From: Ignisphaera sp.
GTDB taxonomy: Archaea > Thermoproteota > Thermoprotei_A > Sulfolobales > Ignisphaeraceae
Length of the DNA stretch: 64,000 nt
Direction of reading: 5' to 3'
Assembly: GCA_028275825.1 (NCBI GenBank)
Contig: JAPWTX010000003.1
Span: 17,463 to 81,462, forward strand
Shown here: positions 47,419 through 64,000 of the stretch, piece after piece
Layout: every line of letters begins with the position of its first letter
Numbering within the stretch: the stretch's first letter is position 1
The notes under the pieces: model-generated
What the model was told of the DNA's origin: nothing
Databases searched by the model: none
What the model saw: the letters and a program-made list of their open reading frames with translations, nothing else
Program-made: the position numbers and the translations under genes

Positions 47419-47839
47419 AAATGCAGACAACTAGTTGAATAGTTTTTAGTACAAAGATAGAGAATAACGTCATACAGTTTTACATCCTTATGCTAAACAC
47501 ACTTTCTTGACGTTGACTTTTTCCTCCAAGAACTTCCTTACACTTTATAAAGCTATTGACATATGGATAGTTTTAATGTTTGCTGTGTTTTTGCGGGGCA
47601 GCAGTCTTATAATCTTTGTTTTACATGTTTTGCTTGTTGATGAACTTTTGTAATTACTTGACTATGTGAATTCAGTTCTGTTCTATTTACATCAATGCTC
47701 ATGACCATGTTTTTAGAGGTGGCAGTGCTACTGATGAGAGTATTGGTAAGGAGAGAGCTCAAGATAGCGTTACAAAACACTCTCTAGGAGCAAATAAACT
47801 ATATAGTTAGCTTATATGGGCACCTTTGATCTACTCTCT

Positions 47840-48064
47840 GCTCTGAATGGCTGGTTTTTAGGAGGTTTGATGTTTTTGAATCGAGTCTCAGTTTTGGTTT
47901 GTTCAACCCTAAGCCAATTCCCTGACACATTACCCCCTCCTCGCAGCTGCCTCTAAATCATGTGTTATAGAGTTTCATAACTAAAAATGCTAATAAGAGT
48001 TTGCAAATCTCAACACTTATTATTAACAATGTTTAGAATAGAGAAGACCAGTAAACCCCCATCA
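47840..48064 (+). repeat. ~225-bp dispersed direct repeat, copy 1
   Basis: near identical to 63777-64000; two substitutions and one 1-nt indel noted by eye. Confidence 0.95.
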
Positions 48065-48807: not shown

Positions 48808-49059
48808 TTACCCTTTTACAGAGGGTTTTACAATCTTAGTAGCTAATGATATGTGTTCAATCAAGTCGTCTACAGTATTTCTAAAAGTCAGGAGATTCAC
48901 ATCCTTCCCCCTTACATTAACAGTTAATATGCCGCCAGAACACAGCATTTCTATAGCTATTTGCGGTGGTGCTGTTACGTTATCAGGCTCTACAGAATCT
49001 ATTACACTCTTGCAAATATCTTCATTGATTGGGATTTCTAGGGTAAGCTCTACTTTCAT
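48808..49059 (-). CDS. pcc1: KEOPS complex Pcc1-like subunit
   Basis: 83 aa, GGILTVNVRGKDVNLLTFRNTVDDLIEHISLA; next to RecJ-like and S15 genes. Confidence 0.75.
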   Translation of the reverse strand: MKVELTLEIPINEDICKSVIDSVEPDNVTAPPQIAIEMLCSGGILTVNVRGKDVNLLTFRNTVDDLIEHISLATKIVKPSVKG

Positions 49060-50207
49060 TTAAGTACATCACCTACGCTTTGTAGTGATGATAGCACTAC
49101 ATAGTTTTTCTCTATATTCAACTCCTTGTCCAAGGGCCATCTTGGCTCTAGAAATTGTATAGGTAGAAGGAATTCCCTGCCATTAGTAAAAACCATTACC
49201 TCTTCTGCTAAACCAACTCCCTTCAAAATTCTATAGAGTGTGTAAAGTGGTGGTGTTTTGGGTTCTGTGGAAAAGTCTACAACACCCACTCTAATACTCT
49301 TTATAATGAACCTCTTAATTCCAGCACTTTGGACAAGGCTATCTATTAAGGATTTGAATTGCCTTAGAGTTGAGAACAATAAAGGAATTAAGTACTTCAT
49401 GAGCTGGGGCTCTAAAGCAAGGTATAATAGGGGTTCAGAACCCTTTAAATCCATATACAATGTCATTGCATAAAAAGATTCATAAACATCCTCAACATCT
49501 TCAACATTTTTCACCATTATCTTTGGCCCAACAAGTTTTTGAGTAGCCCTACTATACTTAGCCAGTATCTTCTCAACTTCTTCAACAAGTTTATTTATTA
49601 TATCTCCCTTTACCTCCTCTCTAATACGCTTAACCATAGCCATACAATTATCAGGATCTAAACTCAATCCAGTTATATAGGGTTCAAGAGATTTTTCAAG
49701 AGCTTGAACAACATCTCTCCTAGGATATCCAAAAAGTCTAATACTTTCAGAATACTCCCACACATCTTTTGACAGAGCCTCTTCTAAAACCTCTTTATGA
49801 ACCTCAACAAAGCTTTCATCATACGAAACTTTGGAAAGCGAGAGCATTGCTGACAAAGCAAGTGCTTCAAGAGTTCTAGGGATAATCCAAAAATCTTTGA
49901 TGTTTCTGATGAGGTGAATAGATGTTGACTGTATTGCAGAGAGCTCCTTTCCCAAAAAATCATCTATAGACAAAAACCTAACACCACTAATAGGCCTCTG
50001 CAAAATCCCTACACCAACAACAAGCCCTTCACCAAGTGGCTTAGAAGCCTCATAAAAAGGTGCTAAAAGAACATCAATATCCTGCTCTTTAAAGAATTTT
50101 AGAAGTAGAGCAGCAGAGAATACACTATCCACACTACTACCATAGATTATATAGAGAGATTTAACCTGTTTAGCTAGAGCCACAAGTTCTTTGAATTGCT
50201 TAGCCAT
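49056..50207 (-). CDS. DHH/RecJ-like phosphoesterase family protein, divergent
   Basis: YIIYGSSVDSVFSAALLLKFFKEQDIDVLLAPF; gene order with rps15 and pcc1. Confidence 0.65.
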   Translation of the reverse strand: MAKQFKELVALAKQVKSLYIIYGSSVDSVFSAALLLKFFKEQDIDVLLAPFYEASKPLGEGLVVGVGILQRPISGVRFLSIDDFLGKELSAIQSTSIHLIRNIKDFWIIPRTLEALALSAMLSLSKVSYDESFVEVHKEVLEEALSKDVWEYSESIRLFGYPRRDVVQALEKSLEPYITGLSLDPDNCMAMVKRIREEVKGDIINKLVEEVEKILAKYSRATQKLVGPKIMVKNVEDVEDVYESFYAMTLYMDLKGSEPLLYLALEPQLMKYLIPLLFSTLRQFKSLIDSLVQSAGIKRFIIKSIRVGVVDFSTEPKTPPLYTLYRILKGVGLAEEVMVFTNGREFLLPIQFLEPRWPLDKELNIEKNYVVLSSLQSVGDVLK

Positions 50208-50363
50208 TTAAAAACACCACATAACTATACCTTCTAGCTCCATAAAATGCTTTAAAGTTATAGCAAAGTTTATATGAATTCATGCCATGCATTCAAATAT
50301 CCCAATACCCCCTTCCAGCAAAGAGGATCTCGTTTCATCAAGGCCGTTACAACTGAAGCCTCG

Positions 50364-50386
50364 CCATTTATGGCAAGGATAAATGG
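50364..50386. repeat. 8-bp perfect inverted repeat CCATTTAT-7 nt-ATAAATGG
   Basis: 50364-50371 / 50379-50386; may be the left part of the element ending near 50606. Confidence 0.85.
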
Positions 50387-50399
50387 AAAAGATTATAAA

Positions 50400-50611
50400 C
50401 TTCCTTTGTTTAATTGCTCTTGGTGATGAGCATTGAACTCTCTGAGTTATTGGCGATGATCAACAGTTTATCCATAGCCTTGAGTCCAATGGATAGGGGT
50501 AGTGGGCCGGGGGATCTGGCTGGGATTGAGCCCGAAGGGGGATGTAATCCTGAACCTCCCCACACTAGCGAGAGCCCTAGCCCTTCAGGGTGGGGAGGAG
50601 GTCAAAGTTAA
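50400..50611 (+). ncRNA. solitary GC-rich structured RNA-like element with IS200/IS605-type right end (omega-RNA-like), no tnpB nearby
   Basis: 9-bp stem CCTCCCCAC(50555-50563)/GTGGGGAGG(50590-50598), internal CCCTTCAGGG hairpin (50581-50590), terminal GGAGGAGGTCAA; TATA-like GATTATAAAC upstream (50391-50400); very GC-rich against the AT-rich flanks. Confidence 0.5.
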
Positions 50612-50627
50612 TTATGGCGGAAAAAGG

Positions 50628-51188
50628 TTACTGTGTAGCTTCTGATGATGGCTGTTGTGTAGTTGATGTTTGAGATGATGCTTGTGGCGCTGGCTGTTCT
50701 TGTGCTTGGGCTGTTTGAAGAGCTCCTCCAAGATATTGTGACACAAGAAGTTTTGCTCTTTCTGGCTCGTATATAAAGTCTGGAGGCAGTTTTTTGATGC
50801 GTTTATAGTACTTCATTAATGCATGTATTTTTGACTCTACTTCTATCAATCCTCTCTTGCTTGTAAAATCCTTTGGATGTTCAGCTAGGTGTCTTCTTAA
50901 ATTGACAGCCTTTGCCATAAGCTTAAGTAGGTCTTCAGGAATGGGTAGTGCTACCCCATGTTTTTCTAAAATTTTTGTTAGTTTTATACCTGTTATGCTT
51001 TTTACTAGAGGAATGCCATACTGATCCCTAAGTATTATGCCTATCATAGAAGGTGTGTAACCAATCTTAGCTAGTTCTACAGCTAGTGTTTCAACTTCTT
51101 CAGGAGTGTATCTAACCCATTTAGGAGGCCCTATTCTAGCCGGTCTAGTTGAATGCGACTGCCCTTTGTCTCTCCTCTTACCAGCCAT
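50628..51188 (-). CDS. rps15: 30S ribosomal protein S15 with long Q/S/T/A-rich C-terminal tail
   Basis: [50 protein letters not shown]; tail [27 protein letters not shown]. Confidence 0.95.
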
Positions 51189-54519: not shown

Positions 54520-55836
54520 TCATTGGGCTTGATATAGCTTGATATCAAGCCCTCTCTCCTTGGCTTCACTGCCCTCAGGATCCCTTTTCATCGGAATCCA
54601 TATCACAGGACTCCGCCCGCTCGGGGTGACCCCGACCCACAGCTCCCCCTTCACCGCTTCCTCCAGGTCATTGCTGTGGGGGAACCCCCGCATCTTGGAG
54701 TATTTCAAGTATATGTTTATTGATGCCAGCTTCTGCCTATCTAGCTCGAACCCGCACCTGGGGCACTTGAACACCCTGCCCACTCGGGTCTTCGCAACAT
54801 ACCCGCATCGTGGGCAGTTGCGAGAAGTGTCCTTCGGGGGAACCTTTGCTATAATTGCTTTCTCGGAGATCTTTTTGTGAATGATCTTCCACGGTGTTCT
54901 AGCGTTCCTTTTCCTCCTGTTCCTCGGAGTCTTCTTCCTACGAATCAAGTCCTCCTTCTCTAAATTCTCGAAAACGTGAGTGGTGTTGGGAAACAGCCTG
55001 GTTAACCCACTTGTTAACTTATTTATGAAATCCCTCTCCCTATTACGCTCTCTAACAACATACTTCTCATAGATGTCCTTCAAGTCCTTGCTCTGTGCTA
55101 TCCTCTTCTTTCTCTCATATGTGATCTTCATGCTCTGCAAGGGCTTCAAGTCAACCCTGATGAAGCCTATTCTCGGCGAGAACCCGTCGAGAGATAGCTC
55201 ATTGGAGTCCCATGCAACAACGTCTCTTACCTCTATAATCCTCGTGGACTTGAATGGTATTAGTATCCTATCATCTTTTAATATAACTTCTCCAACTCTC
55301 CAGCCCTCAACCCTGTACTCGTACCACATTGCTCTCCAGGATATGACTAGGTACTCCCCTGGTTTTAGTGTTATCCTTATTGTTTTAGCCTTATAATCTA
55401 TCTTCATAAGCGTTATCTTGCACCTAGCAAATCTCTTCTTAACTCTTGGCTTAACCTTCCTAGCCCTTCCTCTAAGGTATCTCTTCCTCCAGGACTCAAT
55501 AATAGAGTACGCTGTTCTAATAACAGCATCAACCCAGTGCTTAGCATATGGACAGTCTAGTAGGAGTTCATCACGCAGCTTCCTCTTGAAAGACCTGCTC
55601 TTCGGCAACTCTGGGACTTTAAACTTGCTGGGTATTATTACTACTTGCCTCCTCTTCCTCCTCTCTATTCTAGGGAATCTATACCTCCATTCAATGTTCT
55701 CCCAAATTATGTCTATTGCCTTCTGTAGAGTCCTTAGATACCACGTTATCAGCTCTCTAATCCTTGGATCGCTTATTGGTATTGAGTACATTCTGACTTG
55801 CTCAAGGGTCTTCAACGAGCTTTCTCGCACCTTCAA
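54520..55836 (-). CDS. tnpB: TnpB (OrfB) RuvC-like RNA-guided nuclease family protein of an IS607 element
   Basis: AWDSNELSLDGF, HVFENLEKEDL, CPRCGY..KCPRCGFELDRQKLASINIYLK. Confidence 0.93.
   Translation of the reverse strand: MKVRESSLKTLEQVRMYSIPISDPRIRELITWYLRTLQKAIDIIWENIEWRYRFPRIERRKRRQVVIIPSKFKVPELPKSRSFKRKLRDELLLDCPYAKHWVDAVIRTAYSIIESWRKRYLRGRARKVKPRVKKRFARCKITLMKIDYKAKTIRITLKPGEYLVISWRAMWYEYRVEGWRVGEVILKDDRILIPFKSTRIIEVRDVVAWDSNELSLDGFSPRIGFIRVDLKPLQSMKITYERKKRIAQSKDLKDIYEKYVVRERNRERDFINKLTSGLTRLFPNTTHVFENLEKEDLIRRKKTPRNRRKRNARTPWKIIHKKISEKAIIAKVPPKDTSRNCPRCGYVAKTRVGRVFKCPRCGFELDRQKLASINIYLKYSKMRGFPHSNDLEEAVKGELWVGVTPSGRSPVIWIPMKRDPEGSEAKERGLDIKLYQAQ
54525..54552. repeat. 11-bp perfect inverted repeat at the tnpB 3' end (GGGCTTGATAT-AGCTTG-ATATCAAGCCC)
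   Basis: 54525-54535 / 54542-54552; lies within the last codons of tnpB. Confidence 0.9.
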
Positions 55837-56404
55837 CCACCTTCTCGTACTTGTGGCTCCTCATACCGTAGAGTTTCCCCGCGAAGTGGGATATTATTGT
55901 GATGAGGTCTTCTATAAGCTCCTCCCTAGGATCCTTATCTTCATGGTTTAAGACAACTATCTCCACACCAAAAGCTCTCAGCAACTCCTCGATAGTTTTA
56001 AAGCCAAACCTCGTCAATCTATCTGGATATGCAACAACAATTCTCGATATCTTTCTCTCAACAGCTAACCTTAGTAACTTCTTGAATCCCCTCCTATCCT
56101 CATTTAACCCACTCCTAATATCTGTCACCACCTCGTAATCAACTATGTTGTTTTGCCTAGCCCAATCCTCTAATGTTCTAACCTGTCTCTCCAAATCATC
56201 TCTTTGACTATTAGATGACACCCTAGCATAGAGAATTACCCTCCTCTGTTTAACTACACCAATTAATCTCTCAACATCCTCCTCCTTAAACCTCCACTTA
56301 CCACCCGGAGTCAACACAGGCTTTATGTAGCCCCTCCTAACATAATCCCTCAAAGTAGTATAGCTAATAGCAAGCCTCTCACAAACCTCCTTAGGCCTCA
56401 GCAC
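55802..56404 (-). CDS. tnpA: IS607-type serine recombinase TnpA
   Basis: MerR-like N-terminal HTH (MLRPKEVCERLAISYTTLRDYVRRGYI) and VILYARVSSNSQRDDLERQV catalytic motif. Confidence 0.94.
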   Translation of the reverse strand: MLRPKEVCERLAISYTTLRDYVRRGYIKPVLTPGGKWRFKEEDVERLIGVVKQRRVILYARVSSNSQRDDLERQVRTLEDWARQNNIVDYEVVTDIRSGLNEDRRGFKKLLRLAVERKISRIVVAYPDRLTRFGFKTIEELLRAFGVEIVVLNHEDKDPREELIEDLITIISHFAGKLYGMRSHKYEKVVEGARKLVEDP

Positions 56405-56637
56405 CTCATTCCCTAAATAAGAAAATCAATATCAACCCTTATAAACCTTTATGAAAAACAAAGCAGTTTCACGACGGCTCAGTATTGGACTAGATTTGTG
56501 ATCTACTACTACATAAAATTCAGAGTGTGTAGAGACTTGGATGAAACTTTGCTATGTTATAACCAGCATCATTTCACAATGCTTATCTTTTTAACTTAAA
56601 ATGCTTAGTAAAGCAATATTGCAGAAGGTGTTCGAGG

Positions 56638-63759: not shown

Positions 63760-63776
63760 CAGCTACCTTACTCCTT

Positions 63777-64000
63777 GCTCTGAATGGCTGGTTTTTAGGA
63801 GGTTTGATGTTTTTGAATCGAGTCTCAGTTTTGGTTTGTTCAACCCTAAGCTAATTCCCTGACACATTACCCCCTCCTCGCAGCTGCCTCTAAATCATGT
63901 GTTATAGAGTTTCATAACTAAAAATGCTAATAAGAGTTTGTAAATCTCAACACTTATTATTAACAATGTTTAGAATAGAGAAGACAGTAAACCCCCATCA
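63777..64000 (+). repeat. dispersed direct repeat, copy 2 (truncated by window end)
   Basis: near identical to 47840-48064. Confidence 0.95.

Follow-up and report, generated by a model that had tools for sequence, protein, structure and literature searches.

A non-autonomous IS200/IS605-type element with an internal promoter-like box and a predicted TnpB omega-RNA in an Ignisphaera genome

Within the window, by which we mean the whole 64,000-nucleotide stretch of Ignisphaera sp. DNA analyzed here, positions 50347-50605 (+) hold a 259-bp unit that we interpret, with a probability of about 0.88, as a tnpB-less, non-autonomous transposon of the IS200/IS605 type (PATE/MITE-like) whose interior consists of a promoter and an omega-RNA gene belonging to a TnpB clade. 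Read 5' to 3', it consists of TTAC, a left-end hairpin, an archaeal BRE/TATA promoter, a structured RNA of ~185 nt and the right end GGGGAGGAGGTCA. The limits were set at the points where an alignment of 27 left ends and ~40 right ends loses similarity, which makes the unit larger than the interval of 50364-50611 given in the earlier note. By ORF reading, neither a Y1 TnpA nor a TnpB ORF lies within the element, which is thus not an autonomous member of the group. Its features are as follows:

50347-50605, + strand: non-autonomous IS200/IS605-type element by copy alignment, gene-less apart from a remnant of the tnpB tail
50347-50350, + strand: TTAC that forms the left boundary, a putative TAM and tetranucleotide for cleavage or targeting; first in 23 of 27 left ends, with a variable preceding base
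50359-50378, + strand: imperfect left-end (LE) hairpin CCTCGCCATTTATGGCAAGG, read from the sequence and retained both by the copies and by L023 and L123, which are of the parent type
50385-50399, + strand: BRE/TATA promoter GGAAAAG-ATTATAAA, at the same position in L123 before tnpA-tnpB
50422-50472, + strand: predicted 5' leader of the RNA, beginning GGTGATGA with its start at ~50422, conserved across tnpB-less copies of several genera
50424-50429 (TGATGA), 50442-50445 (CTGA) and 50454-50459 (CGATGA), + strand: C/D-box-like motifs in the leader, read from the sequence
50473-50605, + strand: predicted omega-RNA scaffold core, common to the 3' ends of tnpB genes and showing covariation
50512-50516, + strand: hairpin loop, the 5' half of a proposed pseudoknot; GGATC in the window copy, AGACC in most copies
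50571-50605, + strand: right end (RE), a hairpin and GGGGAGGAGGTCA(G/A), from pattern matches across the genome
50600-50603, + strand: GGTC, which supplies the 3' side of the pseudoknot and sits at -6 to -3 counted back from the guide, from covariation and the ISDra2 parallel
50606-50625, + strand: flank directly 3' of the element, different from copy to copy, the would-be guide if transcription reads through

The GC-rich island, nested stems, TATA-like box and terminal sequence described in the earlier note are all present: GC content is 54-63% across 50450-50599 vs ~35-40% in the surroundings, CCTCCCCAC (50555-50563) is complementary to GTGGGGAGG (50590-50598), CCC-TTCA-GGG is part of the right-end hairpin, and GATTATAAAC begins at 50391. 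An 8-bp inverted repeat described there also exists, as the inner part of the left-end hairpin. The element starts with TTACAACTGAAGCC and its GGGGAGGAGGTCA ends at 50604; the base after GTCA is A (50605) in the window copy and G in nearly all others. IS608-type elements that target TTAC are known, and together with the alignment they lead us to read the TTAC as a putative target and TAM; a base-exact empty site was looked for and none was recovered.

The copies in the genome itself (1.81 Mb, 98.45% complete) carry much of the case for a mobile element. BLAST gave 44 matches at E <= 10 (best non-self E = 1.6e-56), and a profile built from 24 copies recovered 32 near-full-length ones, with fragments in addition; the copies are ~20% divergent from one another and have precise common ends and unrelated flanks, as expected of dispersed multicopy insertions. 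The right-end pattern GGGAGGAGGTCA, with at most one mismatch allowed, had 89 matches as opposed to 5 for a reversed control pattern, and the left-end pattern had 95 vs 7, so that ends alone outnumber full copies. When left and right ends were paired, ~23 elements had lengths of 234-270 bp and ~14 were only 41-42 bp long, while a single one, L023, spanned 1431 bp and carried a TnpB. That the element stands beyond chance follows from its copy number, its precise shared ends and covariation across relatives, not from its folding energy, which is unremarkable for its composition (z = 0.01 for 50478-50612 and -1.32 for 50400-50612). A plasmid collection that was also searched gave no match. The 41-42 bp elements consist of fused left and right hairpins (TTACAACTGAAAGCCTCGCCCTTTAGGGCGGGGAGGAGGTCAG; for example L077:200-265, L080:255-320, L081:300-365 and L082:590-640), resembling solo LTRs of the same transposon family.

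Longer relatives have these ends around tnpB or tnpA-tnpB. In L023, from the same genome, an open TnpB-type ORF of 388 aa is enclosed by the window-type left end and promoter region on one side and the right end on the other, and the RNA at its 3' end is a distant match (35 bits, E = 2e-9) to R1, a covariance model of the type-A RNA to which the window copy belongs. Short elements with the L023-type tnpB 3' end are also found (L072, L074, L075 and L053:2887-3145), and in L066 and L073 this 3' end follows a 5' part of type A. In a second genome of the same genus (G001), L123 is complete, comprising a left end, the same promoter, Y1 TnpA (Pfam PF01797, E = 6e-41), TnpB (PF01385, PF07282), the RNA and a right end. 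Ends with subterminal hairpins are thus common to the window element, L023 and L123, placing it in the IS200/IS605 group. Two further tnpB-type ORFs in the Ignisphaera genome, L033 (403 aa) and L034 (398 aa), have 3' ends with a reverse-oriented end-like hairpin (GCCTCGYCTTTTAAGGCGGGGAGG).

R1 matched in 45 of 98 related genomes and in 67 of 398 genomes of the phylum. Among 69 inspected loci, a chosen set made up of the best per genome plus a selection and not a random sample, a TnpB ORF on the same strand enters the RNA by 90-360 nt in ~31, mostly stopping 20-60 nt short of the RNA end. The same arrangement occurs in ISDka2, an IS200/IS605-group element with tnpA and tnpB from Hyperthermophilic Archaeal Virus 2 (GU722197): its orfB 3' end matches the RNA core and right end of the window element with 78% identity over 114 nt and scores 148 bits with R1. 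Both of its genes lie between the left end and the RNA, whereas the window element has neither. Because the RNA occupies tnpB 3' ends through to the right end, L123 and ISDka2 included, we assign the window RNA, from its sequence, to the omega-RNAs of a TnpB clade. The earlier note had likened the island to a tnpB-less omega-RNA or right end of IS200/IS605 type, possibly a MITE-like minimal element, and both suggestions hold: the ends recur on L023 and L123, ISDka2 shares the RNA, and the many near-full-length copies are gene-less. A virus of hyperthermophilic archaea carrying this omega-RNA within ISDka2 (L186) is also a possible vehicle for spread.

Conservation of RNA structure is evident across the family. 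Over 73 distinct sequences, 89.4% of cells are paired vs 79.4% in shuffled alignments, double-sided changes occur in 286 cells vs 94, and the covariation score is 0.238 vs at most 0.067 for slid structures, with none of 500 shuffles reaching the observed values; fitting of the alignment (A3) to the model biases these figures toward the structure, and the slid controls are nonetheless far lower. Near the 3' end, GGTC at -6 to -3 pairs with a nearly invariant loop GACC at about -94 to -91, forming a four-pair pseudoknot that is 92.5% paired across the 73 sequences. Conserved stems and a pseudoknot made with the scaffold 3' end, both expected of an omega-RNA, are therefore seen family-wide. In ISDra2 the corresponding pseudoknot joins -5 to -3 with -103 to -105 (PMC10097598). 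The pseudoknot loop of the window copy is degenerate and has drifted, and given this and the absent terminal G, this copy may be dead.

Within the Ignisphaera genome the signal is smaller. Single stem changes retain pairing in 61% of cases vs 38% expected from the unpaired spectrum, and when unique events are counted 33 of 70 keep pairing vs 23.2 expected (p = 0.01). Covariation among these copies alone is weak, its score being reached in 86 of 500 shuffles, and selection on the RNA following tnpB loss is therefore only suggested. RNAalifold on the same copies showed that compensatory changes were few, and it proposed 36-40/199-203 as an alternative pairing, which conflicts with the pseudoknot and was rejected; relatives provide the better test of the structure.

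A promoter-like box accompanies the RNA. It is TATA-like in 22 of 24 own-genome copies; box and leader could both be located in 20 of the copies, and there the box precedes the leader by 28-30 nt, which is normal archaeal promoter spacing. Copies without tnpB in several genera retain both ends together with the promoter-like box and the RNA core. The spacer from box to core varies among them: it measures 35 nt in two (L148, L149) and 82-91 nt in four (L093, L094, L096, L158), and it is longer in L146 and L147. A leader of the form GGTGATGAG...CTCTTTGAGC...GGCGATGA is common to type-A solo elements of several genera and absent from tnpB-linked copies; pattern search found it in named genomes of Desulfurococcaceae and Ignisphaera, and beyond that family in Candidatus Wolframiiraptor. 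It resembles the C, D' and C' boxes of archaeal C/D sRNAs with no clear D box, its Rfam C/D matches are far below cut-off (sR12 17.7 bits, snoPyro_CD 17.6 bits), and it could be an L7Ae-binding site.

In the 98 related genomes, the RNA and its cognate TnpB tend to occur together: 25 have both, 20 the RNA only, 2 the TnpB only and 51 neither (Fisher p = 5e-9), leaving ~20 genomes that hold the RNA without the TnpB of the clade at E <= 1e-20. The Ignisphaera genome is one in which no TnpB of the L123 clade was found at that threshold, and no Y1 TnpA was found in it either; its copies are therefore orphans, and today they are most likely relics.

The probable origin and spread of such elements are as follows. 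A tnpA-tnpB element lost its middle by internal deletion, so that the retained left end and promoter came to be linked through a short leader with the omega-RNA and the right end, and Y1 TnpA probably mobilized the product in trans by acting on the end hairpins at TTAC sites. The internal promoter would give rise to a scaffold transcript running into the flank, for which TnpB biology predicts the role of guide. If TnpB from another element bound such RNAs, it would be expected to cut empty sites (TTAC plus guide), favoring retention of the copies. We consider it nearly an even bet that the RNA was used in trans at some time in this lineage.

The principal competing explanation is a plain MITE or PATE, in which TnpA needs nothing but the DNA ends to move the element and the omega-RNA segment is passive and never used. 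A genome lacking both cognate TnpB and Y1 TnpA is compatible with this, as are the end-only derivatives of 41-42 bp, the ~20% divergence of the copies together with the partial decay of the window copy, and the weak shuffle control within the genome. A passive segment, however, sits less well with several tnpB-less lineages, differing in leader and genus, that retain the whole RNA core and the promoter-like box upstream, far beyond the end hairpin, or with stem changes that retain pairing above expectation. We regard this explanation as a real contender, at somewhat under even odds. It seems unlikely that the guide RNAs are at work in trans today through an extant TnpB, a possibility raised in the earlier note, and so serve to retain copies or to regulate. 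L023 would be a candidate partner, having an open TnpB-type ORF within the same ends and a 3' RNA that R1 recognizes distantly at 35 bits, and short elements with L023-type RNA exist (L072, L074, L075, L053); but both its RNA and its protein are far from the window type, and omega-RNA use is generally clade-specific, which counts against its TnpB using window-type RNA.

The genomic setting bears on whether the RNA might belong to the host. The element lies between two minus-strand genes, rps15 (50628-51188, Pfam Ribosomal_S15) and a gene at 49056-50207 that we take, from reading the sequence by eye and with no Pfam match, to be DHH-like; it is 3' (downstream) of the former and upstream of the latter. 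In most other congeners the rps15 interval measures 45-273 bp and the element is absent. The window copy is thus a lineage-specific insertion and not a conserved rps15-linked sRNA, and the suggestion in the earlier note of a domesticated sRNA upstream of rps15 finds no support, the gene order being wrong, the interval empty in most congeners and one congener having an independent, inverted copy. That congener (G010, L163) acquired the same solo element independently, in reverse orientation and again between rps15 and the DHH-like gene; the site may be a hot spot for insertion.

It is accordingly very improbable that the RNA is a host C/D-box sRNA or a member of another known family such as HgcC or sotRNA, inserted or domesticated at rps15. 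The C/D-like leader motifs and scores of 18.6 bits for HgcC and 17.7 bits for sR12 point that way, but the element is multicopy with transposon ends at a locus that is not conserved, and no family reached its Rfam gathering threshold anywhere in the window, so that the identification with a different known RNA family that the earlier note had envisaged was not obtained. The closest families include HgcC (RF00062; 18.6 bits, cut-off 50) and sot0042 (13.5 bits, cut-off 88), and the likeness to HgcC and sotRNA is one to RNAs sharing the right-end tail: HgcC has a similar CCCUUUAGGG..GGGGAGGAGGUCAG tail and a different interior.

Among known systems, ISDra2-type omega-RNAs and haloarchaeal sotRNA (RF02656) share with the window family their position at the tnpB 3' end and right end, their stems and a variable flank as guide, and in ISDra2 also a pseudoknot from the last scaffold nucleotides (-5 to -3 with -103 to -105, compared with -6 to -3 and about -94 here). 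The window element differs in having no tnpB, a promoter close upstream of the RNA, an additional C/D-like leader and scores below the Rfam cut-offs. Standalone, trans-encoded omega-RNAs have been reported beside IscB systems; these are alike in that no nuclease gene adjoins the guide-RNA locus, but belong to the IscB/Cas9 lineage and not to TnpB. The sotRNA (sot0042, RF02656) is now treated as an omega-RNA (PMC12558985), and SisTnpB1, the TnpB of an archaeal IS605 element, is guided by such an RNA beside an LE-associated TAM (PMC10640517). A PATE-like element of Halanaerobium hydrogeniformans likewise consists of LE, the last part of tnpB (58 nt) and RE (160 nt) without a gene (PMC7290912); it is present in one copy, whereas the window family has 32 near-full-length copies with conserved promoter and RNA and extends over many genera. 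The kind of element is thus already known from PATE/MITE derivatives and trans omega-RNAs; what makes the present variant notable is its multicopy form with promoter plus omega-RNA. In the literature searched, with most subscription papers outside its scope, no large family was described that spans several genera and combines a promoter and a conserved omega-RNA with the lack of a nuclease.

Cas12 systems descend from TnpB and its omega-RNA, and a guide RNA that is parted from its nuclease gene, expressed alone and used in trans represents a step toward CRISPR arrays and domesticated TnpB regulators. The family offers natural multicopy cases of this separation, with dozens of promoter-bearing loci that each have a different built-in guide, and the existence of genomes with and without the partner TnpB makes trans function of solo omega-RNAs and self-protection of insertions directly testable. 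It would also account for GC-rich orphan RNA islands in crenarchaeal genomes. A more far-reaching proposal, which we offer as speculation and judge improbable in its entirety, is that these are guide-only transposons, reduced to a promoter and a TnpB guide RNA, that have spread over archaeal orders by borrowing TnpA and TnpB, with the C/D-box-like (L7Ae-binding) leader of one lineage stabilizing or processing the guide RNA and each insertion programming the borrowed nuclease to defend its own site.

Other mobile sequences in the window were also considered. One of four IS607-type recombinases in the genome lies ~4 kb from the element, in a minus-strand pair at 54523-56425 made up of a serine recombinase (55805-56425) and a TnpB-type ORF of 446 aa (54523-55860). 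An origin of the element from such a serine-recombinase (IS607) transposon was rejected, as its ends match those of the Y1-type L023 and L123 and the TnpB of this pair has a different 3' end. Finally, a 233-bp repeat pair at 47832-48064 and 63769-64000, 97.9% identical, has weak minus-strand R1 matches of 22.5 and 20.4 bits and is probably a degenerate relative of the same family of elements that was recently copied.
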